Positions 34,786 to 63,246 of a stretch of DNA of 64,000 nucleotides are shown one piece after another. How positions within the stretch are numbered: position 1 is the stretch's first letter; each line of letters begins with the position of its first letter. The translations under genes were made by a program, and so were the position numbers. The stretch covers positions 2,728,001 through 2,792,000 of the forward strand of contig NZ_FNLM01000034.1 of the NCBI RefSeq assembly GCF_900105725.1, given 5' to 3'. Origin of the DNA: Gordonia westfalica (GTDB lineage Bacteria > Actinomycetota > Actinomycetes > Mycobacteriales > Mycobacteriaceae). The notes below the pieces were generated by a model that made no database searches, was not told the DNA's origin, and was given only the letters and a program-made list of their open reading frames with translations.

Positions 34786-34885
34786 TTGCGGTCCGCACGC
34801 GGGCACCATCACTCCCGCGGCCCGCACGCGGGCACGTCACTCCCGCGGGCACGTCACTCCCGCGGCCCGCACGCGGGCACGTCGA
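34786..34885. repeat. GC-rich tandem repeats over the 3' end of the DUF4012 gene
   Basis: Near-copies of a roughly 28-base unit (CACTCCCGCGGCCCGCACGC then GGGCACGT) occur about three times, some shortened, spanning the stop codon at 34854. The last full copy encodes the protein's final residues; the others are duplicates beyond the stop. Confidence 0.8.
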
Positions 34886-36617
34886 CGGTGACGGTCGGAT
34901 CGTCGACCAGCGGCTGCACCGGCACGTCGGCCTCGCCGAACGCGGCGGTCGGCTCGTCGATCTTCAGCGTGACCGTGGCGCTCTGTCCCGGTCCGATCCC
35001 GACGCGGGTCGAGTAGTACGGCCGCCCGTGCAAGGTCTGCTCGACGTAGAAGGCGCCGGCGTCGCCGAGGGTCATCTCCTTGAGGACCGCACCCTTGGTG
35101 GCGAGGAACTCCACGTTGGCCAGGTTGGTGCCCTTGTCCACCGTCAGTTCGGTGCCGAGACCGCCCGCGACGTAGTCGGTGAGCCCCGTCTCGTCGAGGG
35201 TGTTGGTCAGGGTGACGGTGATGGTGCTCTCCCGGGTGTCGCCACTGCAATCGCCTGCGGTGTACTCGATCTCGCGGCGCAGGTAGTAGTCGAGCTTGCT
35301 GCCCGAGGCGTTGCCGATCGCCACCTGGAGATACGGCGAGTCGGTGTCGGAGATCTGGTGGCCGAGCTTGGTGGTCTCGAGGATCTCCTGTTCGGCGGGC
35401 GTGGTGCTGTAGATCATGATCCGGCGCTCGTGGACGCCGCGTCCGAGCGCCTCGAGCAGCGACCGGGTGCTGCCGCCCGAGGTGATCATCTTCTTGACGA
35501 CGGCCTGGGAGATGGACTGCAGGTACGCCTTTCGTGCCTCGTTGTCGTCGGCGAATCGCTGATAGGAGGTCGACAGCGTGATGGGGACGACGTTGTCGCC
35601 GGTGATCCTCTCCCCGCCGGGCAGCGTCACCGGCCCGGCGGCGTCGAGTACGTACTTCAGCGCGATCGGGTCGAGGGCGATGGCGCCGTCGAGCCGCTGA
35701 CCGGTCTGGGCCTGCCAGTTGGCCAGCCAGATCTTGGCGGCGTCGGGGAAGTGCGCGGACAGGTTCCCGTTCCGGAAGTCGGTGTACGGCTTGTAGTAGG
35801 AGTAGATCGAGTCGTACTCCGCCCCCAGGTTGATCTTCGGCGTCGCCGGGTCGCGGAACTCCGAATTGGCCCCCAGCTCCGGAACCGTCACGCGCCCACC
35901 GGTCGCGTTGAGCAACCCGAAGCCGCCTACGAGACCGCCGGTTCCGCGCGCTTCCGACGGTGTCTGGAAGGCCAGGAAGTAGTTGCGCGGTCCCTCCGAA
36001 CCCAGCATCGGCGGAATGAGCTGCGCGGCGATGTCGGTCGCGACGAGCGTGGACTCGGCTGCATCTACCTGTTCGGCGAGTTGGGTTCTCGCGTCGGCGA
36101 CGACGCCGAGCCAGCTCGGATCGATCGACGCCACCTGGCCGGCCACCTCGGTCGAGCGTTCGGCGACCTCGGCGAGCGCCGGCTGCGCCTCCCGGAGCAG
36201 CTTGAGGTTGACGGTGTTCCCCGTCCGCAGCCGATCCGGGTTCAGCACGCCGGCGAGGTCGGCGGCCGGGAGGAGTACCTCGGAGGAGAGCGCTTCGACG
36301 GCGTCGCTCATCTGTTGCACCGACTCGAGCGGCGACCCGATCCCCGGGATCGCGGCCACCGCCGACCAGATGAAGCCGTGGGACTTCTCGGACGCGGCCT
36401 GCGCACTGTCGGCGGCCGCCGTGGCGGCCTGGGCGGCGCCGGCCTGATCACCGTCGAGCATCAGGGTTCGCGCACGCGAGGCGTCGGTCCGCACCGACTC
36501 CAGATCGCCCTTGACCTTCAGCGCCGAGTACGCGAGCCACGCGACGCACGCGGCGACGAGCACCACGATCACGGCGACGATCTGGACCGCCCGGTTTCCG
36601 GCGATGCGGCGGATCAT
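34854..36617 (-). CDS. DUF4012 domain membrane-anchored protein
   Basis: A 587-residue protein with one N-terminal transmembrane helix (IVAVIVVLVAACVAWLAYSAL at about residues 12-32) and a large outside part. A helical stretch (residues 40-190) precedes the DUF4012 core: NYFLAFQTPSEARGTGGLVGGFGLLNA near residue 215 and RLDGAIALDPIALKYVLDAAG. DUF4012 proteins are often found in actinobacterial and other exopolysaccharide loci, but their activity is unknown to me. ATG 36617 overlaps the phosphatase stop by 4 bases, so it is last in the NRPS-phosphatase-DUF4012 run. Its 3' end overlaps GC-rich tandem repeats. Confidence 0.85.
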   Translation of the reverse strand: MIRRIAGNRAVQIVAVIVVLVAACVAWLAYSALKVKGDLESVRTDASRARTLMLDGDQAGAAQAATAAADSAQAASEKSHGFIWSAVAAIPGIGSPLESVQQMSDAVEALSSEVLLPAADLAGVLNPDRLRTGNTVNLKLLREAQPALAEVAERSTEVAGQVASIDPSWLGVVADARTQLAEQVDAAESTLVATDIAAQLIPPMLGSEGPRNYFLAFQTPSEARGTGGLVGGFGLLNATGGRVTVPELGANSEFRDPATPKINLGAEYDSIYSYYKPYTDFRNGNLSAHFPDAAKIWLANWQAQTGQRLDGAIALDPIALKYVLDAAGPVTLPGGERITGDNVVPITLSTSYQRFADDNEARKAYLQSISQAVVKKMITSGGSTRSLLEALGRGVHERRIMIYSTTPAEQEILETTKLGHQISDTDSPYLQVAIGNASGSKLDYYLRREIEYTAGDCSGDTRESTITVTLTNTLDETGLTDYVAGGLGTELTVDKGTNLANVEFLATKGAVLKEMTLGDAGAFYVEQTLHGRPYYSTRVGIGPGQSATVTLKIDEPTAAFGEADVPVQPLVDDPTVTVDVPACGPRE

Positions 36618-37225
36618 CGGCTCTCCCCTGTCGTCTCGGTGATGTGCTGTGCCGCCAGCCATCCGGCGACGGTCTCGACCTTCGGCTCGATCTCGGCGAA
36701 GACGCGGTCGAAGTCCTCACGCGGCCGGCCCATCGGGTCGACGATGTCGAGGAGCGACGAGTTGGGATCGATGCGACCCCGCCCCGCCATGATCGCTGCG
36801 AGGGTGCCGCTCTCGTCCGGGGCGCCGGACTCCGCCAGCGCGGCGAACTCGGTGAGCGTGAACACGCGCTTCCAGCGCGCGGGTGCCATCTGCTGGGCGG
36901 CCGCGCGGTGCTCGCGGCTCATGCACAGCACGATGTCGGCCTGGGCCAGCATCGGCGGCCGCAGGTACCGGGACTCGAAACCCGCTGCGTCGTAGCCGTG
37001 TTCGGTGAGGACGGCGGCCGAGTGCGGATGGATCGGCTGACCGTTGAGTGCCCCGGTACCGGCGCTGCTCGAGGTGACGGCGAGCTCCGTCCCGTCCGCC
37101 CGCATGCGGTCGGCCAGGCCGGCCAGCACGCGTTCACCGATCGGTGAGCGGCAGATGTTGCCCGTACAGACGAACAGGATCGACAGCCCCGTCGACGTCG
37201 CGTCCCGGTCGGTTCCGGTCACCAT
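36614..37225 (-). CDS. Low-molecular-weight protein tyrosine phosphatase
   Basis: A 203-residue LMW-PTP. The active-site loop VCTGNICRSP (Cys and Arg of CX5R) is at about residue 19, and the general-acid loop DPMGRP is near residue 163. Proteins of the Wzb/Etp kind dephosphorylate tyrosine kinases that control chain length in capsule and EPS export; no such kinase is seen here. The gene starts at ATG 37225, 7 bases inside the end of the NRPS gene, and overlaps DUF4012 by 4 bases, so all three should be translated from one message. Confidence 0.92.
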   Translation of the reverse strand: MVTGTDRDATSTGLSILFVCTGNICRSPIGERVLAGLADRMRADGTELAVTSSSAGTGALNGQPIHPHSAAVLTEHGYDAAGFESRYLRPPMLAQADIVLCMSREHRAAAQQMAPARWKRVFTLTEFAALAESGAPDESGTLAAIMAGRGRIDPNSSLLDIVDPMGRPREDFDRVFAEIEPKVETVAGWLAAQHITETTGESR

Positions 37226-40200
37226 TCCTCCTCGATTCTCCTGGCCAGCCGACGCATCACGTCGGGGTCTCCCAATTGCGCGTGTGTCACTCCGGCGGGC
37301 AACACTTCCACCGCCGGTGTCTCGGTCCCGGCCTCGTTCCGGACCGCCCGCCCCCAGCTCTCAACATCCGGATTGTCCTCGGCGGCAACGTAGATCACCT
37401 TACCGACGGGCACCGGACGCAGTTCGTAGGACCGCGCCGCGGCCGCCAGGGTCCGGGAACGATCTTCGAATCGCCGCAGGGCCTGCGGGTCGTGTCGTTC
37501 GGCCGCGGCCCGGAGCGGGTGGTCCTCGCCGAGGAGTTCGTCGTCGGCGACGCCCTGCAGGTCCTCTGGGGTCCGGGGGTCGAGCACCATCAGCACCGCG
37601 ACCCGCTCCCCGGTCTCGACGAGCTGCCGGCTCATCTCGTGCGCGATGATGCCGCCGAGCGACCAGCCGACAAGGTGGTACGGCCCGACCGGCTGACGTG
37701 CCCGGACCGCCGCGACGTGCAGGGCCGCGATCTCCGGCAGGGTCGTGGGCAGTGGGCGGTCGGCGACCACCAGTTCGGGCAGTTGTAGGCCGTACGCGAC
37801 GGCCGTGTCCAGTGATGCACCGAGGGCACGGAACGGTTCGGCGATCCCCGCGGCGGTGTGCACGCACCACACCACCGGGGCGCCGGATTCCGCGGTATCG
37901 GCATCCACATCCGACAAGGGCACCACGCGGTGATCGACGCCGGTGCCCTCACCCGAGGACATGGCCTCGACCACGCGGGCCACCTCGGCCGGCGTGCGGT
38001 GGGTGAACAGGTCCGCGACCTCCACGACGATCCCGGTGCGGCGTGAGAGTTCGTCGCGCAGCTGCACCAGCGCCAGGGAGTTGCCGCCCATCCCGAAGAA
38101 GTCGTCGTCCATCCCCGGCCCGTGTTCGCCCGGCGTGTCGCCCAGCACCGCCAGGAACGCTTCGCGCACCGTCCTTTCCGTGGATGTCTCGGGTTCGCGG
38201 GTCGATTCCGACCACACCGGCTCGGGCAGCCGCCGATGATCGATCTTGCCCGCCCCGCTCAGCGGCAGTTCGGCCATCTCGACGATCCGGCCGGGCACCA
38301 TGTGCCGCGGCAGCAGCGCGCGGCAGGCGTCGGCGAGCCGGTCGGCGGGCACCGCGGAGACCACGTACGAGACCAGTGCGGGACCGGCCGGTCCCGGCCG
38401 CAGCACCGTGACCGATCGCCGGGCCCCGGCGCCCACCAGCACGGCGTCGATCTCGGCGGGCTCGACGCGCTGGCCGCGGATCTTCATCTGGCGGTCGGCG
38501 CGTCCGACGTAGACGAGCTCGCCGGTCCCACGATCCCACCGCACGAGGTCGCCGGTCCGGTAGCGGCGACGCCCGTCGTTCCCGGCCACGAAGGTCGCGG
38601 CGGTCAGCGCCCGGTCCCCGAGATAGCCACGGGCGACACCGGTTCCGCTCACGTAGAGTTCGCCGACGACGCCGGGCGGCACGTGCCGCAGCCGGGTGTC
38701 GAGGACCTCGGCGCCGATCCCGGGACGCGGGTGACCCAGCCGCACCGGTTCGCCCGGACGGTAGGCGCTGGTGGACACCGTCACGGTCGTCTCGGTCGGG
38801 CCGTAGATGTTCAGCACCTGAGCCCGCTCCGACCACGCCGCCGCCAGGTCCGCCGGCAGCGCCTCCCCGCCGATGTAGACCAGCCGCACCGACGTGATCG
38901 ACTCCGGCTGCATGGTCCGCATCACCGACGGGGTCGCGGTGAACACGCTGACCCCGGTGCGGTCGAGGAACCCGGCGAGTTCGCGACCACCGACGATCTC
39001 GGGTGGCACGACCACGAGCGTCGCCCCCGTCGCCAGCGGCAGCAGCATGTCGTGGAACGTCGCGTCGAAGCCGGGGCTGATCGCCATTCCCACGCGGTCG
39101 CCGGACTCCACATCGCCGAGCGCGGCGACGCGATGCACGCCACGGTGGGTGACGCCGACGATGTTCGGCGTGCCGGTGGTGCCCGACGTCGTGATGACGT
39201 AGGCGAGCGAGTCCGGTGAGACGCGCGTGATCGGTTCCGACGCAACGGGTCCCGACGGCTGCGCGGGAATGTCACCGGGACCGATCGCGGTCGCCCGCGC
39301 CCCGTCGACCACGTGGTCGATCCGGGCCGCCGGATAGGTGACGTCGACGGGGACGCACACCCCGCCGATGCGGCTCACCGCCCAGATGGCGACCACCGAT
39401 TCGATCGAGCGCGGGACCACGACCGCCACCGCATCGCCCGCGCCGAGACCGCGGGCGCGGAACGCGCGCGCCGTCTCCGACACCCAGGCGTCGAACTCGA
39501 GGTGGGTGAGGGTCCGGGTGCCGTCGGCGATCGCCGGACGCCGGCCGTGCGACGCCACCGCCTCGGCGAACAGATCGGCGAGCAGGGGTTCGGTCCCGGT
39601 GGGCGCGTTGACCCGTGCACGGCCGGTGAGGAATTCGCGTTCGGCCCCGGTGAGCGGTTCGATGGCGGCGACGCGTCTCGCCGGGTCTCCCGTCACCGCC
39701 GCGACGGCGGCCACCAGACGTTCACCGAGACCGCGGATCACGTTCTCGTCGAACAGATCCCGCGCGTGATGGAGTTGCAGACGCCAGGTGTCCCCGGAAC
39801 GGACGGCGACGACGTGCACGTCGAACTCGCTGTGCGAATCCATCGCGGTGCGCGGCGCACCTGGTTCCGGTGAGGCACCGCCCGGCTCGATCCCGGCGGC
39901 CTCGACCACCGAGAAGGCGACCTGTACGAGCGGGTGGCGCCCGGGCACTCGAGGTGGATCGACGAGCGCGACGACGTCGTCGAAGGCGATGGCAGCGTGG
40001 TCCAGGGCGGCGAGGTCGGCGTCCCGGACGGTCTCGATGAGCCCACCCACCGTCAGGCCGGCGGTCAGCCGCGTGCGCAGGACGACCGTCGAGATCAGCA
40101 TCCCGACCGTTCCGGCGCTGTCCTCGTCGCGGCGCATCGAGGCCGGCGTCGCCACCGCGATGTCGTCGACTCCGGTCTGGGCCGCGAGCGCGAGTGCGGT

Positions 40201-43200
40201 GGCGGCGTGAAGCACGTGGAAATCGCTGGCCTGCGCACGGCGGGCCGCCGACGAGATCGATCGGGCGACGGTGTCGTCGACCGCGAACTCGACGACCGAC
40301 GTACGCAGGTCGCGGGCGGGCGGGCGGTGCCCCACGAGGTCGAGCTCCCCGCCGTATCCGTCGAGGGCCACCCCCCAGTAACGGAGCAGTTCGGCGCGCG
40401 AACCCTGTTCCTCGGCGACCATCCGTCGCGCGAGGACGTCGAAGCCGACCGGTTTCCCGTCGAGCGTCTCACCGGCCAGGAGCGCGATGAGTTCCCGTTC
40501 GACGATGGCCGCCGATTCGCCGTCGATCGCGATGTGGTGGGCGACGAGCACCACCGCGACGGGCACGGGGTCGACCGCCTCGGCGGTGTCGACTGCATCG
40601 CCGCGGCCCTCCGACAGCAACCACACCCGAACCGGCGGATCCCCGGCGAGATCGAACGGCGCGGAGAACTCGTCGGCGATCGTCGTTCCGGTCAATGCGG
40701 AGGAGTCGAGATGCCGTATCGGCGGCCGCCATCCGTCGACGACCTGCTGCCGCGGACCGTCGGGCGTGGCCAGGTAGCGGGTACGCAGCGCCGGGTGGCG
40801 ATCGACGAGCGAGTCGAGTGCGCCGGCCACATCGGCGTTCGTCACCCCGGCCGGCACGCCGACGACGACCGGGACCGAGTAGATCGGGACCGGCCCGAGC
40901 ATCTGGGCCCCGACCCACATGCGGCGCTGCGTCGGTGCCAGCGGGATCGCCACGGACGGGCCGTCCGGGATCTCGTCGGTGAGAGCGGCAGGCGCACGGG
41001 AGGTGTCGGCCGTATCGGCGGCGGCCAGTGCGGACACCGCGGCCGCGAGCGCCACGGGTGTCGGGTGCTCGAACAGCACGCGCGTCGGCACCCGGATGCC
41101 GAGGTGGCGTCCCAGTGCGGAGGTCACCCTGGTGGCCGACAACGAGGTACCGCCGAGAGCGAAGAAGTCGTCGGACTCCGCGAGGGCATCCGAGACCTCG
41201 AGCACCTCGGCCATGACCGCGCCGACGCGCGCGACGAGGTCGGCCGTGGCGAGGTCAAGCGTTTCGGGTTCGCCTGCGTGCGTCACGGTTTCGGCCGCCC
41301 TGGGCTCATGCGCGACGAACCCGTCGGCGTCGACGGTCGCCGCGACGATCGGGAACGGGTTCCCGACGTCACCCAGGCCGCGCAGCAGGGTCGTGTACTC
41401 GTCGAGCAACGTCTGCGCCACACCGTCCGGGATCTCTCCGGAGTGCACCAGCTTGACGTGCAGTTCGTCATCGCTCTCCGCGAGGACCACCTCGATGTCG
41501 TACTTCGCGTCGACGGTCGAGGTCGCCTCGGTGATCAGCGAGGCCACCGCACCGGCCAGGACGACCTCACCGGACGCCTGGGGAACGACCTCCTGGCTGA
41601 CGAGCAACACCGAGATCAGCGGGTCGGCGCCGTCGCGGGCCGCGGGGCGGACCGCTCGGACTACGTCCTCATACGGGACGTCGCCATGTGCCAGCGCGGC
41701 CAGCGCGACGTCGCGTACCCGCTCGACGGCCTCCCGGACCGGCGTGTCGGGCCGGAGACTCGTGCGCAGCGCGACGGTGTTGACGAACATACCAACCACC
41801 GGCTCCCACTCGGCGGCCGAACGCCCGTGCACCGGCACGCCGATCAGGACGTCCCAGTGGCCGGTCAGCTGACCGAGGGTCGCCGCGAGGGCCGCGTGCG
41901 CAACCTGGAACACCGTCGCCGACAACGCTTTCGCGGTCTGATGGATCGCGGGGGCCGGGACGGACGCGGTGATCCGACCGGTGACCCCGGCGCCATCGGC
42001 GTCACGGCGGCCGGGTAACCGGAGCGGTTCCGGAGCGTCGGCGAGAGTCGCTGTCCAGTAGCGGATCTGGCGCGCATAGGGGCTGTCCCGATCGGAGGGG
42101 TCGCCGAGGCGTGCCATCTGCCACTGCGTGAAGTCGGCGTAGGTGAACGCCTCGTCGGCCGCCACCGCCAGCCGCTCGCCGTCGTACGCCCGCATCAGGT
42201 CGGCGAGCAGCACCCGGATCGACCAGCCGTCGATCGCGATGTGGTGGAGCACCGCCGCCAGGTAGAGGTCCGGGTTCTCGGAGGCGATGCCCTCGGGTGT
42301 GTCCGCCTCGAAGACCGCCGCACGGAATCCGGGCTCGTTCTCGAGATCGAACGGCGCCCGCAGATACTCGGTCACCTGCTGACGGAGTACAGCGCCGACG
42401 TCTCCGTCCCCGACCTCGACCTCGACCAGGCGATGTGTCAGCACCGGGCTGCGGTGTTCGACCCGCCGCTGCACCGGCCCGGCCGGCGAGTCCGGGTAGA
42501 CGGTCCGCAGCACCGCGTGGGCCCCGACCACCTCGTCGACTGCCTTGCGCAGCCGGGCGAGGTCGACGCGCCCGCGGATCCGCATGACCACGGGCACGTG
42601 GTACGCGGTCGAGGTCGGGTCGAAATGGTGGTGAATCCACATGCGGCGCTGCGGATATGCCAGCGGCAAGGGGTCCGGGACGGGTAGTCTCGCCGGCGCC
42701 GGCGACTGCGCGGAGTAGGTCTCGGAGGTCCGGGAGACCAGGACCTCGACGCGCCGCGCCAGTTCGCCGATCGTCCGCGCTTCGAACAGCAGGCGCGCAG
42801 CGATGTCGGCTCCGGCGGAGGCGGACAGCCTCGAGGTGACCTGGGTGGCCGACAGCGAGGTGCCGCCGTCGGCGAAGAAATCGGAGTCCGCGTCGAAGCT
42901 CTCGACGGGCCGGTCGAGGACCTCCGCCCACACCGACGCGATGAGCAGCTCGACCTCCCCCGTCAGCGCGCGGCCGGCCGTGGCCGCACCCGGGGCACCG
43001 GTCGCGCCGAAGTCCGGCGCGGGCAGGGACGCGACGTCGATCTTGCCGTTGCGGCCGAGCGGCAGTTCCGCGACCTCGACGAAGGCACTCGGGATCATGG
43101 TGCGCGGCAATACATGTGACAGCTGCGAGGCGAGGTCGTCGATGCGGGGTCCGGCATCGGGCTCGCCGACGACCCAGGAGACCAGGACCTTCTCGCCGGC

Positions 43201-46200
43201 GGCGGTGGCGCGGGCCGCGGTCACCGAGGTGGCGACGCCGGACAGCCGGGACAGCGCCGCGTCGATCTCCGCGGGTTCGAGGCGGACGCCCCGGATCTTG
43301 ACCTGGTCGTCGGTGCGGCCGTGGATCACGAAGGTCCCGTCTCCGCGCCGATGCACCAGGTCTCCGGTCCGATACATCCGTGTGCCCGCCCGACCGGCGA
43401 CGAAGGCGCTCGCGGTCGCGCGTGGATCGTCGAGATACCCACGCGCCAGGCAGTTCCCGGAGAGATAGAGTTCACCGACCGTGTGGTCCGGAACCGGGTG
43501 CAACCCGGCGTCGAGGACCTGCATGGCCACGCCGTCGAGCGGCCGCCCGATGTGTACCGCACCCGAGGCACCGTGGGCGTAGCGCGCACTGCTCACCGCC
43601 ACGGTCGCCTCGGTCGGACCGTACTCGTTGCTGAGGGTGCCGGATCTCGTCCACTCGCGGATGAGGCCGGCGCCGAGCGGTTCACCGCCGACCGCGACGT
43701 GCCGCACGCGGGGCAGGTCGCCGGGGCGCAACGTCGCGAGCACCGACGGGGTCGTGAGCAGGACCGTCACACCCGCGTCGTGGACGAGGTCGGCGAGTTC
43801 GTCCGCCGCGATGACGTCGGGCGGACACACGATCATCGTCGCACCGGCGATCCGCGGCGGCAGAATGCCCATCAGGTGGGCGTCGAAACCCGTTGCGTAC
43901 GTGTGCAGGACCCGGTCGTCGGCCGCCAGACCCAACCGGCAGACGGTGTCGCGGGCCCATCCCGCCAGTCCGCGATGGGTGACCGCGACGCCCTTGGGCA
44001 CACCCGTCGTGCCGGAGGTGAACGTGATGTAGGCGACGTCGTCCAGCATCACGGCCCGCACCCGTTCCGTGTCGTCGAACGGCGGCACCTCCGACGGCAA
44101 TCCGGCGAACAGGTCGTCGAGAGCGAGGACCGCGGCACCGGCGGGGTCGATCCCGGCAGGGTCGATCCCGGCGAGCGTGAGCACCACCGTCGGGCGGCAC
44201 CGGCCGAGGATCGAGCGTCGGCGCCCGGCCGGGTCGGCGGGGTCGACGTTGACGAACGCCGCGCCCGCACGGGCGATCGCGACGGTCGCGACGACGCCGT
44301 ACACCGACCTCGGCAGCATGCCGACGACCACGTCCCCGGCGCCCACACCGCGCTCGATCAGCACGCGCGCCAGGTACGTCGACAACCGGTCGAAGTCGTC
44401 CTCGGTGATCTCGGTTCCGAATCCCGGTATCCGATGACGGGGGTCGACGACCGCGATGTCGGACGGGGATGCGTCATGCGACGTGACCAACGCGTCGAAG
44501 ATCTCCGGCTCGAACTGCGCCGTCGCCGTCTCCCCGACCGCCGGGGCCATCAGCGACCGCACCGGTTCTGCGGGTGCGAGAACGCCGCGCCGTAGTGTCT
44601 CGACGACCAGGTCGCACAGGGCTTCCAGCCGGTCCGAGGTCGCGACGGAATCGGTACAGGACATGGTCAGATGCAGAGCGCCGGCATGCCGGTACATCGA
44701 GACGTCGATGCCGAAGAGCGGGATTCCCAGCACTCCCGAGGCGGCGTTGCCGACCTCCCCGGAGGGGAACTCGGCTTCCACCCATTCGACGATCGCGTCC
44801 GGCACCGCACCGAAGGACACCTCGAACAGCGGGGTGCCGGCCCCGGCGCGGCCGGGGTCGGCGATCTCGGAGATCTCGGTGAGCGGCAGATCGGCATGGG
44901 AGAAGGCGCCGAGGTCCACCGCCGTCACCCGCGACAGGAGTTCGCCGAAGGAGAGTTCCGCGTCGATCGGCGTGTGCAGCGGCACCGCACGCGCGAACAG
45001 GCCCGGCACACCGACGAGGCCCGGGTCGAGACGACCGGACAGCGCGGTACCGATGGTCACCACCCCGGCCCCCGACTGCCGGGCCAGCACGGCGGCGAGC
45101 GCGGTGTGCGCGGCGATGAACGGGGTCGACGACCGGTCGACCGTCAGCGCATCCAGCGACGCGGTGACGGTCTCGTCGAGACGGCCGTGCGCACGGTGCA
45201 CGATCGTCTGTCCGGGTGCCGCAACGGTGTGCGCCTGCAGGTTCACCTCGGGCAGCCGGAGCTGCTCGACCGGCCGGACGAACGCCGCACGCCAGAACGA
45301 CGCGAGTTCGGACCGCCTCGACTCCAGCGTCTCGGCACGCCACACGGAGTACCGCCGGTAGTCGGTTCCGCTCGACGGCAGCGTCGCTCCCGAGAGAGCG
45401 GTGTCGAGTTCGCCGGCCAGGATCGCGAAGGACTCCCCGTCGGCGGCGATGTGGTGGATCACCCCGAGAAGCCAGGTGGTTCCGTCGATCTCGACGATCC
45501 GGACCCGCCACGGGAGCGAGACGGCGAGGTCGATGGGCGCGGCCATCGCCGCGAGCACGGCGGTCGCATCCTGCGTGGCGACGTCCGGGCCGGCCGAATC
45601 GAGCTCGGATTCCAGATGGGCGAGAACGGCGGCGTCGTCCCACCGGCGCTGTACCGGGACCTGTTGGCGCATCGGGAATCCGGTGCACAGCGCGTCGTGT
45701 CGCGTCACGATCGCCGCCAGCGCGCGTCGCGCGTCGCCGGGTTCCGCATCGATCGGCAATGACAGCGGGAGGAGGTAGCCGGTGAAGTCCGGTTCGGTCC
45801 GCCACCGCAACCACACGTCCATCTGTTCCGGTGTGAGCGGGAGATCCGCGGGGATCTCGCGGTCGTCGCCCGACAGGGACACCCGCGATGGAACGAATGG
45901 TGTCCCCGGTGTGGCCAGCCGCGCAGCCAGTTCCGCGACGGTCGGGTACTCGAAGACGTCGCCGACCTCGACGCGGTATCCCATCCCGGCGAGCGTGGCG
46001 GCCAGACGCGCCGCCGAGAGCGAGGTGCCACCGGCGGCGAAGAAGTTCGTGTCGGCGCCGAGGTGACCGGCGTCCTCACCGATGACCGCACGGATCGCCG
46101 ACGCGACCGTCTCCTCGATCGGGCCGAGCGCCCGTCCGACCGGCGGGGCGGTGTCGGCGATGCTCGCGAAGAGCTTGTCGCGGTCGATCTTCCCGGTCCC

Positions 46201-49200
46201 GGTCATCGGCCAGCCGTCGACGATCGTGGCCCGGGACGGCACGGCGTGAGCCGGCAACCGGGTCGCGCAGTCGGCCAGGATCGACGCCTCGTCGAGGTCG
46301 TCCAGGACGTCGAAGTCGGCGAGGCCGTCCTCGGTCACGAAGGCCAGCAGGTGCTCGTCGCCCGCCCGTCGGCCCGGTCGTACCAGGACGCGCGCATCGC
46401 CCACGCCCGGTATCGCGCGCAGAGCCGAGACGATCTCACCGAGTTCCACACGGTGGCCGCGGATCTGGACCTGGTCGTCGTTGCGGCCGAGGTAGGCGAA
46501 ACGACCCGGAGCGACCTCGCGGACGCGGTCGCCGGTGCGGTACATCCGCCGGCCGCTACCCGACGGGTCCGCGACGAATCGGGTCGCGGTGAGACCCGGT
46601 GCGTTGAGGTAGCCGAGCGCGACCTGCTCGCCGGCGAGATACAGTTCGCCGGCCGCACCGGTCGGCACCGGCCGCAGGCGCCGGTCCAGCACCATCGCGC
46701 CGACGCCGTCGAACGGGGTGCCGATGATGCTGCGTTCGTCGTCGAGGTCGACGTCGGCGGCGGTGAGCACGACGGTCGTCTCGGTGATGCCGTACATGTT
46801 GACCAGGCGGGTGCGGGGATGCTCGGCCGCCCAGGCGCGCAACGTGTTCGGCGCGAGGGTCTCACCGCCGAAGACGACGGCCCGCAGTGACGTCAGTTCC
46901 GGCGCGGCCGGGGCCCCCGCCGCTCTGGTGGTCGTCGCCAGGTCGACGATTCCGCTGAACGCGGTCGGGGTCTGCGACAGGATCGTGATCCCGTGCCGGT
47001 CGATCACCGCGGCGAGAGCACGGGGATCCCGCACGGTCGCATGGTCCACGACGACCACGCTGCCCCCGGATGCGAGCGCACCCAGGATCTCCCAGACCGA
47101 GAAGTCGAAGGCGTAGGAGTGCACCCAGGCCCAGACGTCCTGCGCCGACGCGTCGACGAGATCGAGTCCCGCCCCCATCAGAGCGGCCACGTTCTGCCGG
47201 GTCACCACCACGGCCTTCGGCAGGCCGGTGGAACCGGAGGTGTGGATGACATACGCGGCGCCCGGCATCGTCTGCGCGCGTTGATGACCCACCCCGGCCG
47301 TCACCTGGAGACGGCTGTCGACGATCGCGGCCGGGGCGGTCCCGGCAAGGATCAGGTCGATGCGCGCCTGCGGATGGTCCGGATCGATCGGAACATAGAC
47401 CGCGTCGGCGAGGAGGGTCCCGACGATCGCCACCACGGTGTCCGCGCGTCGGTCCATGAGCAGTGCCACGCGGTCGCCGGGCCGCACCCCGAACTCCCGC
47501 AGGTGCGCCGCCAGCGCGCGCGCCCGGTCCACGAGAGTGCGATAGTCGAGCGTCTCCTCACCGGCGATGACCGCGGTCGCCTCGGGGGCCGCGGAGGCGT
47601 GGCGGAGAAGGGCGCGGACGGGGTCGACGCAGGCGGTCCGGCGGCTGCCCGGATCGGCGACCGGCCCCGGCGACAGGCATTCGGCGATCAACGTGCCCGG
47701 TGCCGAGGCGCCCAGAGCCGCAACGGCCTCGACGAACCTGTCGAGCAGCCGACCGGCCGACGCCACATCGACTCGGTGCTCGGCGATCGTCAGAGTGACG
47801 GACAGCCCGTTCCCGTCGTCGATCACGGTGAATTCCAACGCGGTTCGCGCCTCGCCGGTGCGCAACGTCTCCCCGCCGGCGAAGACCGTCGAGGCGACGA
47901 GATCGGGTGCCGTCGCATGGTATGCGAAGATGACGTCGGACAGTCCGGTCGGTCCGGTGTCGGCGAACGTGACGGCCGTGCCGAGATCGCGGCCGGCGCC
48001 CGCGAGCGCTTCGGCGATCGAGGTCTGGCGAGCGCCGGTCACCCGCACCGGCACCGTCTCGACGAACATGCCGACGGGGCGGAGTTCCTCGCTGGTGAAC
48101 CGGCCCGACACCGGCATCGACAGCACGACGTCGTCGGAGTCGGTGAACTCGGCTAGGGTTGCCGAGAGTGCCACGCACAGAAGCGTGTTGACGGTGGTGC
48201 CGCTCTCTCGCGCTCGCGCGGACGCGGCATCGGTGACCGCACGATCGATCCGGCGGCTCGTGTGGACCGCGGGTCCGGCGGTGAGCCCGGACGCCGCGGG
48301 ATCGCCCACCGGCGGTTCGGGCAGTGCGAGACGTTCCGGGGCATCGCGGAGGAACCGGGTCCAGAAGACCTCTGCAGCAGCCCTGTTCGCAGTTGTGGTC
48401 GCTGTCGCAGTCGCAGGGCCGGATGGTCGTGCTTCCAGGACCTCACTGAACGCGACCGCTTCGGTCTCCCAGACGGGTTCCGCACCGGCCGCGCGCGCAC
48501 GGACGGCGTGGGCGAAGTCCTCCAGCACGATGTGCAGCGACCATTCGTCGACGGCGATGTGATGGGCGACGAGAACCAGTTCGACGGCCTCGCGGGTCTC
48601 GTCGAGTACCGCTCGCCACGGGACCCCGGTCCGCAGGTCGAACGGCGCCGACACGGCGAGATCGACGCCCGCCGGGTTCAGGGTCGCGCTGGTGATCGGT
48701 GCGGCAGCGGCAGATTCGGCCCGGCCGCGAACCCGTGCGACCGGCTCCCCGTCGACCTCCGGGTACACGGTCCGCAGTGCCTCGTGCCGGGTGGCCACGT
48801 CGACCAGGGCGGCTCGAGCGGCGTCGGCGGAGATGTGTTCGGCGAGCGTGAGACGCACGGGCAGGTGATACACCGTCGCACGAGGGTCGGCGCGGTTGAG
48901 CAGCCAGATCTCCTGCTGGGCGCGGGTCGGCCGATAGGAGACGACGCCGCCGGTGGATGTCGTCCGCCTCGGGACGGCTGCGTCGATGACCGCGGCGAGC
49001 TCGCCGAGTGTCGTCACCGCCGCCAGGTCGCGCATGTCGACCACCACGCGCAGCCTGCTGCCGAGGTGGGTACCGAGCTGCATGAATCCCAGTGAGGTGG
49101 CGCCCAGTCGGACGAGTTCGTCGTCCATCGACGGACGCGATACGCCCAGCACCTCGGTCACCGCGTCGGCGACCGCCACCTCGGTGGCCGTCATCGGCGG

Positions 49201-52095
49201 CCGATACGTTGCCGGTGGCTCGCGTACCTCCGCGATCAGTCCGGCCGCCGCATGCCGGTCGACGTTGCCGGTCGCATCGGTCGGCAACTCGTCGAGGATC
49301 ACCACGCGGCGGGGTCGGGTCGATGCGGGCACCTCGCCGTCCACCCGGCGCCGGACAGCGGCCCGGACCCGCTGGTGGTCGGCGTCGTCGGTGCCGCAGA
49401 CGACGCCGACGTCGAGTCCGCCCGAGGTCGCCACCGTGACCGCGTACCCGACACCGGCGACCTGTCCCGCCGCCCGGTCGAGTGCCGCGAGATCGATCCG
49501 CACGCCGCCGAGGGTCACCACATCGCCTGCGCGGTGGTCGATCACCAACATGGCAGTGCCCGGGTCGAAGTGGCCGCGGTCGCCGGTGTGCAGCATCCGT
49601 GTTCCCCGGTCCCACGGGCACGCCACGAGGGTGGCCGCGGTGCCGACCGGGTCGTCGGCGACGCCCCGGATCACCTGCGGACCGGTCACATAGACGTCGC
49701 CCGTGATCCCGGCCGGAACCGGCCGCAGCCAACGGTCCAGAACGGCGATCTCGGTGCCGGGACGCGGTGCACCACTGGGCAATCGGTGGTCGACGGCGGC
49801 ATCGGGGGCGATCCGCCGGTTCGCCGTCACCGGACCGAACGCGCCGCGCGGACAGTACGGCGCCGACACCTCGCGACCGAAGGCCAGGCGCACCAGAGCG
49901 GCCGGCGCGATGTCCTCCCCCGCCACCAGGAGCGAGGTCATCGGCCCCTGCTTGTCGAGCCCCGGGACATCTTCCGGCGTGGCGATCACGTGTGTGACCG
50001 ACGCGGTGTCCGCACCGGGCACGACGAGCCGCAGGCCGTGCGCGGCCGCCGCGATGATCTCCAGATGGGCGGCCGACGACCCGGCGTCAGCGTCGAAGAG
50101 GAGGCGGCCGTACACGAGATCGGTCGACCGGTCGTCGAACAGTCCGGTGGCGATCAGCGCGGCCACCGCGCACTGGGGCACCGCAACGGTCGTGGCGACC
50201 CCGGAATCGGATTCCGTGATCGCGAGATGGCAGGCGATGTCCTCGGATTCGGGTGGACGGACCGGCGCTGCGGAGGCCTCGAGCCCATCGAGGTCCGTGA
50301 GTGTCAGGAGGCGCGGACCCGAGTCCGACGCCGGGGCGTCCTCGGACTGTGCGGCGATGACGAGCGCGGGACGTGCGCTCACCGGCAGCGTCGCGACGGC
50401 CGCACGCGGCGCGATCGGATCGAGCAGGACGAGTGCGGCACCGCTCACCCCCACCGCCCACCACGCGGTCAGCCGGTCGACGCCCGGCGGCAACGCAATA
50501 CCCACCACGGCCCCCGGAGCCGCGCCGGCGGTTCGGAGTCGGGCAGCGAGATCCACTGCGCGGCCGTGTAACCGGTCGAACGTGAGCGGTCGGGTGCGGG
50601 GCTCGTCGATCACCGGCCCGTGCGCGTGACGCGCGGCCGCGGCGGCGAGCGCCTCGGGCACGGTGGCCGGCACGGACCCGAGGGCTGCGCCGCGGACCAC
50701 CGCCACCGGGTCGGCGAGCGGGAGATCGTCGATGCGGGTGTCCGGCGCTTGCACAAGAGCATCGGCGAAGGTGCGCAGCATCGCGAGGAACTGTCGATGA
50801 TGCTCGGCGACCTCGGCGTCGTCGTAGCGATTGGGGTTGGCCTCCACCCCGATCATCAGCACCGAGTCCCGGTCCTCGCCGGCGACCGGGACGATGTTGA
50901 TCGTCAGATCCTCGGCGGGGCCGACCGTGAGTATGTGGAAGGTGCCGTGCGCCTCTCCGCAGGGGAACTCGCGCTGGAAGAGCATGAGATTGAGCATCGG
51001 ACCGGACCGCTCCTGCGCCGCGGTGCGCCGTACGCGTCCGCTGGTCTCGTCGGCGGCGACATCGGCCCAGATGTCCTCGCCGCGGTAACGCTGGTGCCGC
51101 AGCGCGCCGAGGAGTGCCGCCTGTGTGGTGGCCAGCGCATCGGCGACCGACGCCTCCCCCGCGACGCCGGTACGCAACGGAACCACATTCGAGACGGGCA
51201 GCGGCGTCGAGCGGAGCGCAGCGGTGGTGCGCGCGGCCACCGGGAACTGGAAGATCACCTCGTCGCCCTCGGCCGCGGCTCGGGACAGGTAGGCCGAGAA
51301 CGCGGCGACGATGACGTTCGGAAGGATCGTCGAACGCACCTCGGCCGCGCGGCGGAGCGCATCCATCGTGCCCGCGTCCACAGGCGCGTGGACGCGCCGC
51401 GACACCGCGTCGGGCTCGCCGCGCCGATGGGCGAGCGACGCGGGGATTCCCACCCCGGCCATGGCCTGTCGCCAGTGACTCCGGTCGGTGTCGAAGCGTC
51501 GCGATGCGCGGTACTCGTCGTCGGCGCGCGCAGGCAGATCGAGGTCCACCGGTTTGACGGCCGGAGGCGTGCCGCCGGTCACCGCGGCGTGATAGGCGGC
51601 GATCGCCTCGACCATGCGGTCCTTGCCGCCCACCCCGTCCGAGAGCAGGTGGTGGCCGCGGTTGTAGACGAAGAACTTCTCGTCGCCGAGTCGGAAGAGA
51701 CAGCCGCGGGCGGTGCGGTCGACCCGGGGGTCCAGTGGTCGCGCACAGTCTTCGCGCATGATCGCCTCGGCGGCCGCCCGCGGGTCCGGGCGATCCCGAA
51801 GATCGACGACGTCGGCCCAGTAGTGCAGCGACGGGTCGTAGACGCCCACCAGCCCGTCGTCGGTGTCCTCGAACCTCAGCTGGGTGAACCGGGCGCGACG
51901 CACCACCTCGCTGGTCACGCGGAGGAAGAGTTCGACGTCGATCGGCCCGTCGATCTCGACGTACTGCGCGACGTTGATCGGCACATCCGGTGCCGCCTGC
52001 TGGGTGAACCACAGCGCTCGTTGCGCGGCACTGAGCCGGAATCGTCGGACGATTCCGGCAGTGGGGGTCTCGGGCGGCGGGATCGGGTCGCTCAT
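37219..52095 (-). CDS. Giant non-ribosomal peptide synthetase (C-A*-T, C-A-T, C-A-T, C-T, C-A-T-TE)
   Basis: A 4958-residue synthetase. By motif, approximate residues: C1 15-460 (HHLLSDG), A1 467-975, T1 Ser 998; C2 1053-1480 (HHIAVDE), A2 1488-1995, T2 Ser 2022; C3 2083-2520 (HHIAADG), A3 2532-3045, T3 Ser 3077; C4 3143-3590 (HHIAIDG), T4 Ser 3648; C5 3715-4140 (HHIAIDG), A5 4150-4640, T5 Ser 4670; thioesterase 4725-4958 (GWSLGG, VTHAQ). A1 lacks the TSGTTG loop, the YGPTE box and the A10 lysine and looks dead. Module 4 has no A domain. My reading of the specificity residues is DFWSVGMVV for A2 (Thr-like), DAMLAGEVA for A3 and DAHTYGIVT for A5 (no assignment). C1 resembles acyl-starter condensation domains. 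No epimerase domain or mbtH gene is seen. It sits amid glycan genes. Confidence 0.95.
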   Translation of the reverse strand: MSDPIPPPETPTAGIVRRFRLSAAQRALWFTQQAAPDVPINVAQYVEIDGPIDVELFLRVTSEVVRRARFTQLRFEDTDDGLVGVYDPSLHYWADVVDLRDRPDPRAAAEAIMREDCARPLDPRVDRTARGCLFRLGDEKFFVYNRGHHLLSDGVGGKDRMVEAIAAYHAAVTGGTPPAVKPVDLDLPARADDEYRASRRFDTDRSHWRQAMAGVGIPASLAHRRGEPDAVSRRVHAPVDAGTMDALRRAAEVRSTILPNVIVAAFSAYLSRAAAEGDEVIFQFPVAARTTAALRSTPLPVSNVVPLRTGVAGEASVADALATTQAALLGALRHQRYRGEDIWADVAADETSGRVRRTAAQERSGPMLNLMLFQREFPCGEAHGTFHILTVGPAEDLTINIVPVAGEDRDSVLMIGVEANPNRYDDAEVAEHHRQFLAMLRTFADALVQAPDTRIDDLPLADPVAVVRGAALGSVPATVPEALAAAAARHAHGPVIDEPRTRPLTFDRLHGRAVDLAARLRTAGAAPGAVVGIALPPGVDRLTAWWAVGVSGAALVLLDPIAPRAAVATLPVSARPALVIAAQSEDAPASDSGPRLLTLTDLDGLEASAAPVRPPESEDIACHLAITESDSGVATTVAVPQCAVAALIATGLFDDRSTDLVYGRLLFDADAGSSAAHLEIIAAAAHGLRLVVPGADTASVTHVIATPEDVPGLDKQGPMTSLLVAGEDIAPAALVRLAFGREVSAPYCPRGAFGPVTANRRIAPDAAVDHRLPSGAPRPGTEIAVLDRWLRPVPAGITGDVYVTGPQVIRGVADDPVGTAATLVACPWDRGTRMLHTGDRGHFDPGTAMLVIDHRAGDVVTLGGVRIDLAALDRAAGQVAGVGYAVTVATSGGLDVGVVCGTDDADHQRVRAAVRRRVDGEVPASTRPRRVVILDELPTDATGNVDRHAAAGLIAEVREPPATYRPPMTATEVAVADAVTEVLGVSRPSMDDELVRLGATSLGFMQLGTHLGSRLRVVVDMRDLAAVTTLGELAAVIDAAVPRRTTSTGGVVSYRPTRAQQEIWLLNRADPRATVYHLPVRLTLAEHISADAARAALVDVATRHEALRTVYPEVDGEPVARVRGRAESAAAAPITSATLNPAGVDLAVSAPFDLRTGVPWRAVLDETREAVELVLVAHHIAVDEWSLHIVLEDFAHAVRARAAGAEPVWETEAVAFSEVLEARPSGPATATATTTANRAAAEVFWTRFLRDAPERLALPEPPVGDPAASGLTAGPAVHTSRRIDRAVTDAASARARESGTTVNTLLCVALSATLAEFTDSDDVVLSMPVSGRFTSEELRPVGMFVETVPVRVTGARQTSIAEALAGAGRDLGTAVTFADTGPTGLSDVIFAYHATAPDLVASTVFAGGETLRTGEARTALEFTVIDDGNGLSVTLTIAEHRVDVASAGRLLDRFVEAVAALGASAPGTLIAECLSPGPVADPGSRRTACVDPVRALLRHASAAPEATAVIAGEETLDYRTLVDRARALAAHLREFGVRPGDRVALLMDRRADTVVAIVGTLLADAVYVPIDPDHPQARIDLILAGTAPAAIVDSRLQVTAGVGHQRAQTMPGAAYVIHTSGSTGLPKAVVVTRQNVAALMGAGLDLVDASAQDVWAWVHSYAFDFSVWEILGALASGGSVVVVDHATVRDPRALAAVIDRHGITILSQTPTAFSGIVDLATTTRAAGAPAAPELTSLRAVVFGGETLAPNTLRAWAAEHPRTRLVNMYGITETTVVLTAADVDLDDERSIIGTPFDGVGAMVLDRRLRPVPTGAAGELYLAGEQVALGYLNAPGLTATRFVADPSGSGRRMYRTGDRVREVAPGRFAYLGRNDDQVQIRGHRVELGEIVSALRAIPGVGDARVLVRPGRRAGDEHLLAFVTEDGLADFDVLDDLDEASILADCATRLPAHAVPSRATIVDGWPMTGTGKIDRDKLFASIADTAPPVGRALGPIEETVASAIRAVIGEDAGHLGADTNFFAAGGTSLSAARLAATLAGMGYRVEVGDVFEYPTVAELAARLATPGTPFVPSRVSLSGDDREIPADLPLTPEQMDVWLRWRTEPDFTGYLLPLSLPIDAEPGDARRALAAIVTRHDALCTGFPMRQQVPVQRRWDDAAVLAHLESELDSAGPDVATQDATAVLAAMAAPIDLAVSLPWRVRIVEIDGTTWLLGVIHHIAADGESFAILAGELDTALSGATLPSSGTDYRRYSVWRAETLESRRSELASFWRAAFVRPVEQLRLPEVNLQAHTVAAPGQTIVHRAHGRLDETVTASLDALTVDRSSTPFIAAHTALAAVLARQSGAGVVTIGTALSGRLDPGLVGVPGLFARAVPLHTPIDAELSFGELLSRVTAVDLGAFSHADLPLTEISEIADPGRAGAGTPLFEVSFGAVPDAIVEWVEAEFPSGEVGNAASGVLGIPLFGIDVSMYRHAGALHLTMSCTDSVATSDRLEALCDLVVETLRRGVLAPAEPVRSLMAPAVGETATAQFEPEIFDALVTSHDASPSDIAVVDPRHRIPGFGTEITEDDFDRLSTYLARVLIERGVGAGDVVVGMLPRSVYGVVATVAIARAGAAFVNVDPADPAGRRRSILGRCRPTVVLTLAGIDPAGIDPAGAAVLALDDLFAGLPSEVPPFDDTERVRAVMLDDVAYITFTSGTTGVPKGVAVTHRGLAGWARDTVCRLGLAADDRVLHTYATGFDAHLMGILPPRIAGATMIVCPPDVIAADELADLVHDAGVTVLLTTPSVLATLRPGDLPRVRHVAVGGEPLGAGLIREWTRSGTLSNEYGPTEATVAVSSARYAHGASGAVHIGRPLDGVAMQVLDAGLHPVPDHTVGELYLSGNCLARGYLDDPRATASAFVAGRAGTRMYRTGDLVHRRGDGTFVIHGRTDDQVKIRGVRLEPAEIDAALSRLSGVATSVTAARATAAGEKVLVSWVVGEPDAGPRIDDLASQLSHVLPRTMIPSAFVEVAELPLGRNGKIDVASLPAPDFGATGAPGAATAGRALTGEVELLIASVWAEVLDRPVESFDADSDFFADGGTSLSATQVTSRLSASAGADIAARLLFEARTIGELARRVEVLVSRTSETYSAQSPAPARLPVPDPLPLAYPQRRMWIHHHFDPTSTAYHVPVVMRIRGRVDLARLRKAVDEVVGAHAVLRTVYPDSPAGPVQRRVEHRSPVLTHRLVEVEVGDGDVGAVLRQQVTEYLRAPFDLENEPGFRAAVFEADTPEGIASENPDLYLAAVLHHIAIDGWSIRVLLADLMRAYDGERLAVAADEAFTYADFTQWQMARLGDPSDRDSPYARQIRYWTATLADAPEPLRLPGRRDADGAGVTGRITASVPAPAIHQTAKALSATVFQVAHAALAATLGQLTGHWDVLIGVPVHGRSAAEWEPVVGMFVNTVALRTSLRPDTPVREAVERVRDVALAALAHGDVPYEDVVRAVRPAARDGADPLISVLLVSQEVVPQASGEVVLAGAVASLITEATSTVDAKYDIEVVLAESDDELHVKLVHSGEIPDGVAQTLLDEYTTLLRGLGDVGNPFPIVAATVDADGFVAHEPRAAETVTHAGEPETLDLATADLVARVGAVMAEVLEVSDALAESDDFFALGGTSLSATRVTSALGRHLGIRVPTRVLFEHPTPVALAAAVSALAAADTADTSRAPAALTDEIPDGPSVAIPLAPTQRRMWVGAQMLGPVPIYSVPVVVGVPAGVTNADVAGALDSLVDRHPALRTRYLATPDGPRQQVVDGWRPPIRHLDSSALTGTTIADEFSAPFDLAGDPPVRVWLLSEGRGDAVDTAEAVDPVPVAVVLVAHHIAIDGESAAIVERELIALLAGETLDGKPVGFDVLARRMVAEEQGSRAELLRYWGVALDGYGGELDLVGHRPPARDLRTSVVEFAVDDTVARSISSAARRAQASDFHVLHAATALALAAQTGVDDIAVATPASMRRDEDSAGTVGMLISTVVLRTRLTAGLTVGGLIETVRDADLAALDHAAIAFDDVVALVDPPRVPGRHPLVQVAFSVVEAAGIEPGGASPEPGAPRTAMDSHSEFDVHVVAVRSGDTWRLQLHHARDLFDENVIRGLGERLVAAVAAVTGDPARRVAAIEPLTGAEREFLTGRARVNAPTGTEPLLADLFAEAVASHGRRPAIADGTRTLTHLEFDAWVSETARAFRARGLGAGDAVAVVVPRSIESVVAIWAVSRIGGVCVPVDVTYPAARIDHVVDGARATAIGPGDIPAQPSGPVASEPITRVSPDSLAYVITTSGTTGTPNIVGVTHRGVHRVAALGDVESGDRVGMAISPGFDATFHDMLLPLATGATLVVVPPEIVGGRELAGFLDRTGVSVFTATPSVMRTMQPESITSVRLVYIGGEALPADLAAAWSERAQVLNIYGPTETTVTVSTSAYRPGEPVRLGHPRPGIGAEVLDTRLRHVPPGVVGELYVSGTGVARGYLGDRALTAATFVAGNDGRRRYRTGDLVRWDRGTGELVYVGRADRQMKIRGQRVEPAEIDAVLVGAGARRSVTVLRPGPAGPALVSYVVSAVPADRLADACRALLPRHMVPGRIVEMAELPLSGAGKIDHRRLPEPVWSESTREPETSTERTVREAFLAVLGDTPGEHGPGMDDDFFGMGGNSLALVQLRDELSRRTGIVVEVADLFTHRTPAEVARVVEAMSSGEGTGVDHRVVPLSDVDADTAESGAPVVWCVHTAAGIAEPFRALGASLDTAVAYGLQLPELVVADRPLPTTLPEIAALHVAAVRARQPVGPYHLVGWSLGGIIAHEMSRQLVETGERVAVLMVLDPRTPEDLQGVADDELLGEDHPLRAAAERHDPQALRRFEDRSRTLAAAARSYELRPVPVGKVIYVAAEDNPDVESWGRAVRNEAGTETPAVEVLPAGVTHAQLGDPDVMRRLARRIEEEW

Positions 52096-54007: not shown

Positions 54008-54012
54008 ACGCC

Positions 54013-58158: not shown

Positions 58159-58278
58159 CATGTGCACCAAAGAACCACTTCTCCCCCGACGAATTTCGAG
58201 AAGAATTCTCGTGAATGACGAGTGCACGCACTCGCGCGGACCCCGATGTCCGCTCGAAAGGAGATCGTAATGTGGAAA

Positions 58279-59490: not shown

Positions 59491-59651
59491 GGCGCAGAGA
59501 GTACCGCCAAGTTCGGGGACCCACATGGGTGGCGGGATCCGGACGAGGCTGTGCTCGCAGCTTTACATGCATCTGGTCGGGGAATCAGTGCGTGTTCGAA
59601 AGTCGGTGAAACGACACGGATGTCGTTCGCCTCGCGCTGGGAGAATTGTCG

Positions 59652-63183: not shown

Positions 63184-63246
63184 GATCGCCACTTCGGACC
63201 GGAATCGCGCGCTCCACCAAGCGATTCCGAGACCGAAGTGGCGATC
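63184..63246. terminator. Bidirectional terminator with nested stems
   Basis: A 14-base perfect outer stem GATCGCCACTTCGG / CCGAAGTGGCGATC (63184-63197, 63233-63246) and an inner stem GGAATCGC / GCGATTCC (63201-63208, 63221-63228). It lies between convergent genes and overlaps the stop codon of the esterase gene. Confidence 0.88.

Follow-up and report, generated by a model that had tools for sequence, protein, structure and literature searches.

A nonribosomal peptide synthetase gene recurrently linked to polysaccharide-type genes in Gordonia and related genera

Introduction

Nonribosomal peptide synthetase (NRPS) genes are classed with secondary-metabolite clusters, polysaccharide loci with the genes of the cell surface. 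Both kinds of gene meet in the mycobacterial glycopeptidolipid (GPL) loci (mps1/mps2, gplH and the gtf genes), in which NRPS, glycosyltransferase and acetyltransferase genes lie together in one envelope locus. The product has an N-acylated peptide core that ends in an amino alcohol, a terminal reductase taking the place of a thioesterase (TE), and the loci carry an MmpL transporter. To our knowledge, GPL loci contain no genes for a polyprenyl glycosylphosphotransferase (PGT) or for Wzc-like, Wzb, Wzy-like or DUF4012 proteins. According to the accessible text of PMC3537567, every known GPL cluster has an mbtH-like gene together with its NRPS genes.

Three further kinds of locus share features with the one described here. 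Wzx/Wzy-dependent capsule and exopolysaccharide loci, regulated by Wzc and Wzb, have the same glycan-type genes. In the capsule locus of Bifidobacterium longum 105-A, a DUF4012 gene lies between the genes for the priming transferase and wzz, and the gene table in the accessible part of the paper lists no NRPS (PMC5412050). The rhodococcal lipopeptide gene cluster families come from the same bacterial family and have a large NRPS with a starter condensation (C) domain; the accessible text on them mentions neither "polysaccharide" nor DUF4012, and it does not tie its "Saccharide-2" family with menaquinone genes to an NRPS (PMC5550956). A 2025 survey of Rhodococcus exopolysaccharides reports, in its accessible part, that none of its strains had exopolysaccharide genes connected with a biosynthetic gene cluster (PMC12298843). 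No description of a linkage between an NRPS and a polysaccharide locus was found in the literature searched, mostly outside subscription journals and including the accessible portions of PMC11433410, PMC3848822 and PMC6362181. Here we describe such a linkage and show that, within a single large family of bacteria, both kinds of gene often form one recurring unit.

Results and Discussion

Domain organization of the NRPS

The window, that is, the whole 64,000-nt stretch of DNA analysed, sits in a 6.4-Mb Gordonia genome; over its N-terminal part, the NRPS of the window shares 98% identity with a G. westfalica protein. As originally predicted, it contains a 15-kb NRPS gene whose stop is overlapped by a Wzb-like phosphatase gene (7 nt), which in turn overlaps a DUF4012 gene (4 nt, the start methionine being at 36617). 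Pfam found five Condensation, four AMP-binding and five PP-binding domains and a Thioesterase in the NRPS, and together with our own HMM map gave the order C1-A1*-T1-C2-A2-T2-C3-A3-T3-C4-T4-C5-A5-T5-TE (Table 1). In a tree of 121 C domains, all 20 N-terminal ones, including two from NRPSs without DUF4012 linkage, formed one clade (support 1.0) separate from the internal C domains. C1 looks like a member of the starter (acylating) class, domains of which acylate the first residue.

Table 1. Features of the locus within the window.
Feature	Position	Strand	Basis
DUF4012 protein	34854..36617	-	PF13196, 147.7 bits; hydropathy; alignment
Wzb-like low-molecular-weight protein tyrosine phosphatase	36614..37225	-	LMWPc, 99 bits; loop CTGNICRS present
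NRPS	37219..52095	-	4958 aa, ATG start; Pfam, own HMM map, Gordonia orthologs
TE, terminal thioesterase, GWSLG	37222..37908	-	Pfam Thioesterase, 84.2 bits
A5, code DAHTYGIVTK	38191..39594	-	protein sequence
C4-T4, elongation module without A domain	41011..42669	-	HMM map and C-domain tree
A3, code DAMLAGEVAK (by eye; last seven letters also by script)	42991..44523	-	protein sequence
A2, code DFWSVGMVVK (by eye)	46141..47619	-	protein sequence
A1*, degenerate adenylation domain	49249..50652	-	HMM score, motif scan
C1, N-terminal condensation domain, motif HHLLSDG	50686..52041	-	C-domain tree; motif from HMM map
GTa, GT4-type glycosyltransferase	52862..54016	-	Pfam
Multi-pass membrane protein, 404 aa, flippase by position	54013..55227	-	hydropathy and place
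GTb, GT4-type glycosyltransferase	55215..56381	-	weak Pfam scores
WcaF-like hexapeptide O-acetyltransferase	56381..57007	-	sequence matches
GTc, GT4-type glycosyltransferase	57016..58161	-	Pfam
Glycosidase-like protein (GH5/GH39)	58363..59430	-	Pfam; hydrophobic N-terminus
GDP-mannose 4,6-dehydratase (Gmd)	59646..60647	+	PF16363, 405 bits; TIGR01472, 408.9 (cut-off 415)
Second Gmd-type sugar-nucleotide enzyme	60644..61633	+	profile matches
PGT (WbaP/WcaJ type), initiating enzyme	61630..63156	+	TIGR03025, 402.4 bits (cut-off 295.55)
SASA carbohydrate esterase, extends past window edge	63245..64000	-	profile matches

For A2 and A3 the codes were taken from the sequence by eye. The first letters returned by the script were unreliable, its pattern having caught wrong positions, and for many A domains it returned no code. 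The A2 code is threonine-like and reads as Thr; the PDB chains matching the A2 stretch include ObiF1 and CytC1, whose adenylation specificity is for Thr. By motif scan, A1 has no A3, A5 or A8 core and carries N in place of K in A10, and it scored 121 bits with an adenylation HMM trained without it, against 739-812 for A2, A3 and A5. The T1 domain that follows retains its carrier serine (GATSL). Across Gordonia, A1 scores 308-321 bits in G034, G046 and G038, is degenerate in the group of the window and is reduced to remnants of ~110 aa in G018, G051, G025 and G055, a series that indicates decay of this domain. The 13 C domains of the module that has no A domain (nine from Gordonia, two from Williamsia and two from genus g10) form one clade with support 1.0, and modules 1 and 4 both retain the C motif and the carrier serine.

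The lost A1 cores, the A1 remnants and the calling of the NRPS as two ORFs in two of the 11 closest Gordonia genomes (G015 and G035) would fit an NRPS that is losing its function in this lineage, so that a degenerate A1 and an A-less module yield no product. We regard this as highly improbable, given that the NRPS of the window has kept intact A2, A3, A5, T and TE motifs, that the gene is a single open frame in the other nine genomes, that the A-less module has been inherited across three genera and that, in the G018 group, C1 is the best kept stretch of the first 1050 NRPS residues. The intact motifs and the inherited A-less module therefore indicate a loss confined to A1.

Genes surrounding the NRPS

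Hydropathy analysis gave the DUF4012 protein one N-terminal transmembrane segment, and its large remaining part is taken to face outward. Wzb and DUF4012 form a single polypeptide in two Gordonia genomes (G011 and G032) and in seven database proteins listed, one of which, P0022, is possibly that of G011 itself. The DUF4012 profile had no match in the PDB up to E 1, and its comparison with the LytR-CpsA-Psr ligases (PF03816), represented by a single sequence and run with a positive control that gave no output, returned an hhalign probability of 2%. As regards presence only, DUF4012 was found across the order in 89 of 249 genomes and 22 of 68 genera, and at E 1e-40 in 128 of the 301 genomes of the family.

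A gap of 766 bp (52096-52861), in which a promoter search returned one weak site on the opposite strand, separates the NRPS from the glycan operon. The three GT4 enzymes and the acetyltransferase expected there are present, while the predicted flippase is so named by hydropathy and place: this protein had no Pfam match up to E 5, two of its orthologs had none up to E 1, and a Williamsia homolog had only an unrelated match of 11.3 bits. The proteins at the same position in G018 and G041 score 26.4 and 28.2 bits with Polysacc_synt (cut-off 28.2), and the window protein has no significant similarity to those of G018 or G032. The glycosidase-like protein is probably secreted, judging from its N-terminus. 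Divergent from the operon, the genes for the two anticipated Gmd-type enzymes and the WbaP-type transferase lie on the plus strand, the last scoring well above its cut-off as the initiating sugar transferase of a Wzx/Wzy-type locus.

Beyond the window the locus extends to ~73000 (window coordinate), with genes for three LIP-family lipases, an Acyl_transf_3 protein, a Wzz/AAA (Wzc-like) protein and a Wzy_C-like protein. The Wzc-like protein scores 28.0 for Wzz (cut-off 25.5) and 20.1 for AAA_31, below the cut-off of 27, and the Wzy_C-like protein reaches 30.9 bits, below the cut-off of 31.7. The lipase and Acyl_transf_3 genes lie on the minus strand, with the SASA esterase at one side and the Wzc-like gene at the other (L089:2147-7832); by their predicted families, they would represent an unusual lipid or ester chemistry for a polysaccharide locus.

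Comparison with described systems

The locus thus resembles GPL loci in its NRPS, glycosyltransferase and acetyltransferase genes, and an N-acylated peptide core is presumed for it as well. Unlike them, it has a single NRPS gene with a Thioesterase at the C terminus, and it has PGT, Wzc-like, Wzb, Wzy-like and DUF4012 genes. No MbtH gene was found near the NRPS, the three matches in the genome being all on contig C36 and none on C34, and none of the 17 MMPL matches in the genome lies between C34:2.17 and 4.34 Mb. No epimerisation domain was seen in the NRPS domain maps, which contained no separate model for it. Its identification as a GPL locus was therefore rejected, MbtH and MmpL genes being absent nearby and the NRPS ending in a TE, so that the likeness to GPL loci drawn in the original prediction fails on defining features.

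With Wzx/Wzy-dependent loci the locus shares the PGT, the GT4 set, WcaF, Gmd, Wzb and, as candidates, the Wzc-like and Wzy_C-like proteins, and it differs from them by a modular NRPS placed between the glycosyltransferase genes (or Wzc) and Wzb/DUF4012. The rhodococcal lipopeptide families could include some of the loci described below.

Conservation within Gordonia

The NRPS family was present in 22 of 59 Gordonia genomes, positives being those with at least 428 bits against a C1-A1-T1 query (the next best match, a paralog, had 367). In counts per genome or locus, uncorrected for shared ancestry, DUF4012 occurred in all 22 NRPS-positive genomes and in three of the 37 others (P = 2.6e-13); 25 of 27 DUF4012 matches were used, leaving out G017 (E 7e-4) and a remnant in G029. 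The original prediction had proposed that the NRPS should co-occur with the sugar transferase and the flippase. At the genome level this was borne out for the PGT (21/22 versus 15/37, P = 1.9e-5). The flippase type of the window, in 6/22 versus 5/37 genomes (P = 0.30), does not track the NRPS and was discarded as a marker.

The order NRPS-Wzb-DUF4012 was fixed in the closest 11 Gordonia genomes, and menB adjoins the three genes in 10 of them (in G056 one gene lies between; G015 has another gene there). Of the 21 genomes that could be assessed, 14 have glycan genes beside the NRPS, a count that omits G046 (22.6-kb contig), includes G003 despite its halves lying on two contigs and rests for G031 on match coordinates only. 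The glycan cassette of the window itself adjoins the NRPS in G000, G003 (across the two contigs), G005 and G015. A more distant Gordonia group has the NRPS within fuller glycan loci: in G018 (probably G. insulae) the order is PGT-Ugd-Gmd-epimerase-GT-WcaF-GT-WcaF-Wzx-Wzc-NRPS-Wzb-DUF4012, with Wzx just below the Pfam cut-off. Gene calls outside the window were made with a simple codon-score caller and blastp/tblastn labels, so missed or unlabelled genes are likely.

In the remaining seven assessable genomes (G026, G035, G047, G021, G039, G056 and G022), 16 glycan queries found no match over ~20 kb upstream of the NRPS save for a relic in G026, and a Pfam search of the ten genes upstream in G056 returned no glycan type (luciferase-like, PHO4, DUF3349, AMP-ligase and others). 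Relatives with the NRPS and no adjacent glycan genes, which the original prediction had held to speak against the link, are thus found, and all seven still retain Wzb and DUF4012. The relic in G026 (probably G. namibiensis) is a GTa fragment of 45 codons (68%) that adjoins the NRPS; loss is therefore the simpler reading there, and the piece suggests that the glycan genes were lost.

These seven loci count against an NRPS dedicated to the polysaccharide, as do the failure of the flippase type to track the NRPS and the 766-bp gap. The seven loci are in line with the main rival, in which the product of the NRPS is a free, biosurfactant-like lipopeptide, secreted or at the cell surface, that shares only regulation and export timing with the polysaccharide, any glycosylation being on the lipopeptide, as in GPLs. 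A starter-class C1 and a TE fit such a released product, a pair of ABC-2 exporter genes separates DUF4012 from the NRPS in G046, and most rhodococcal NRPS products are predicted lipopeptides in the accessible text of Ceniceros et al. 2017 (PMC5550956). We consider a free or glycosylated lipopeptide possible but unlikely, because the constant partners of the NRPS are of polysaccharide type and neither an MbtH nor an MMPL gene lies near the locus of the window.

A third explanation is that polysaccharide and NRPS genes were both inserted at a hot spot beside menB with no functional link. The locus lies near menB in Gordonia and Williamsia, and glycan genes differ strongly among species, as in capsule switching loci. 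Such a hot spot is improbable given the Wzb-DUF4012 fusions and the joint decay in G. paraffinivorans (L088), where only pieces of NRPS, Wzb and DUF4012 remain beside a full-length menB and the next gene. The 5-kb zones on either side of 10 C-domain blocks cover only ~1.6% of the genome of the window, the chance level for an NRPS neighbour, and the DUF4012 adjacency persists with opposite gene order in other genera, in whose windows no menB was labelled.

The linkage in other genera

In Williamsia (g18) and genus g10, the NRPS has ~5900 to 6170 aa (two ORFs in G192). DUF4012 lies directly downstream of it in all seven loci and Wzc directly upstream in six (not in G075), and each of the seven has PGT, Ugd, Gmd or epimerase genes in the NRPS stretch.

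We then considered 38 DUF4012 loci from 35 genomes of 12 other genera, picked for spread across genera with known coordinates. Two genomes in which NRPS adjacency was known beforehand (G240 and G321) were set apart, and G231 and G247, also adjacent, are not included. In 20-kb windows, a large NRPS lay beside DUF4012 in 25 of the 38 loci, set against the chance level of ~1.6%, and in six of the 12 genera: g6 (3/5), g9 (4/4), g23 (9/9), g26 (1/2), g27 (7/8) and g28 (1/1), of which we take g23 and g27 to be Rhodococcus; g2, g15, g17, g20, g29 and g31 together gave 0/9. One small ORF separates DUF4012 from the NRPS in G293, and the DUF4012 of G191 was placed from the coordinates of another search. 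Since the linkage recurs over many genera, the link between NRPS and polysaccharide genes, which the original prediction had based on proximity in a single genome, now extends beyond it. The Rhodococcus genomes examined here suggest, from their gene content, that the 2025 survey's finding does not hold for them.

Among the 13 loci without an NRPS, nine show Wzc, Wzb or PGT, two only Ugd or Gmd and two (G190 and G072) none of these; DUF4012 thus works without an NRPS, which counts against an NRPS dedicated to the glycan system. So does the finding that only nine of the 25 NRPS windows (G093, G293, G066, G129, G263, G270, G174, G085 and G301b) gave a glycan match of at least 40% identity, the rest giving weaker or no labelled matches; a 20-kb window covers one far side and half the length of the NRPS, and glycosyltransferases of foreign types would go unlabelled.

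Six NRPSs of the Rhodococcus type were read through and have 3 to 8 modules. Wzc is the next gene in four of them (with one gene between in G293), followed by Wzb in G185 and G066; the Wzc of G270 is above the Pfam cut-offs for both Wzz and AAA_31. G085 has Wzb but no Wzc nearby and G137 has neither, and the lack of Wzc right after the NRPS in these two is a further point against a dedicated NRPS. In the Rhodococcus type the gene order is opposite to that in Gordonia, DUF4012 being divergent from the NRPS start, except in G083, whose NRPS lies upstream in the same orientation. When the N-terminal C domains were placed in a midpoint-rooted tree, this separated a Gordonia/Williamsia/g10 type (47 tips, support 1.0) from a Rhodococcus type (11 tips, 0.976), the two being parted by NRPSs without known DUF4012 linkage, with deeper node supports of 0.57 to 0.91; this split rests on one domain, and domains shuffle. 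That two gene arrangements have the same partners argues for function. A free lipopeptide needs neither Wzc nor Wzb beside its NRPS, yet these genes are seen with both NRPS types.

All six of these Rhodococcus-type proteins, of 3 to 8 modules, have a penultimate A code ending in LAGA[VI]VK, and the last A code was legible in only one of the six. A penultimate code that stays constant while the length varies would be expected if the peptide were attached by that end.

A proposed role in polysaccharide synthesis

The constant partners of the NRPS are DUF4012, Wzb and, in many lineages, a Wzc-type co-polymerase/kinase. We therefore return to the explanation that we favour and judge fairly probable, that an extracellular-polysaccharide system has this NRPS as a dedicated component, the N-acylated peptide being joined to, or exported with, the glycan. 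Overall, the interpretation of the locus as first put forward is partly supported, a peptide-decorated polysaccharide being a possible product.

We infer the following steps. C1 would attach an acyl chain to the first residue, and the five modules would build a peptide of at most five residues. For three of these, the first being Thr, the module would use its own A domain to select the substrate; the T1 and T4 carriers would be charged by another A domain or skipped. The TE would then set the acyl-peptide free as a lipopeptide or transfer it to a sugar of the lipid-linked repeat unit. The WbaP/WcaJ-type enzyme would start the glycan, the GT4 enzymes extend it and WcaF acetylate it, after which it would be flipped and polymerised outside. 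The membrane-anchored, outward-facing DUF4012 protein may act there on the finished or growing product, and Wzb would set the phosphorylation state of Wzc.

More tentatively, and with some doubt on our part, many Mycobacteriaceae may make an undescribed class of polymer, an extracellular polysaccharide bearing a nonribosomal N-acylated oligopeptide on its repeat units or at the end of the chain, with either the NRPS thioesterase or DUF4012 making the bond. If so, the NRPS would set the peptide length, in keeping with the 3 to 8 modules seen, and such a polymer would explain the amphiphilic, oil-binding exopolysaccharides of Gordonia and Rhodococcus. As read from these genes, the locus suggests a cell coat that carries an undescribed peptide, probably with a fatty tail. 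The linkage gives a direct test of the role of the DUF4012 family and bears on the chemistry of the oil-binding surface polymers of hydrocarbon degraders.

Further observations

A second PGT gene (G000:C34:2625966-2627429), with Ugd and Wzc-like genes as neighbours, lies ~138 kb from the NRPS of the window, and second copies lie ~120-131 kb from the NRPS in G035, G021, G039 and G056. Where adjacent glycan genes are missing, such a distant copy may serve the NRPS.

One Gordonia genome (G032, L071-L074) has two NRPS-DUF4012 units ~15 kb apart, each with PGT and Wzc close by. Pfam identified genes for an ABC ATPase and an ABC-2 permease between DUF4012 and NRPS in G046 (L061:1773-3529), and an ATPase-like gene, so labelled by blast alone and with 29-31% identity to a window gene, follows DUF4012 in six of the seven g10/Williamsia loci (not in G075). 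These ABC-type genes possibly encode an exporter that is absent from the window.

Near the locus, an EAL and a GGDEF gene lie side by side (26662-29557) and occupy the same place in several Gordonia genomes with or without the glycan cassette. At 30439-32556, the window encodes an Rv1355c-family protein (ThiF and a nitroreductase-like part) that scores above its NCBIfam cut-off.
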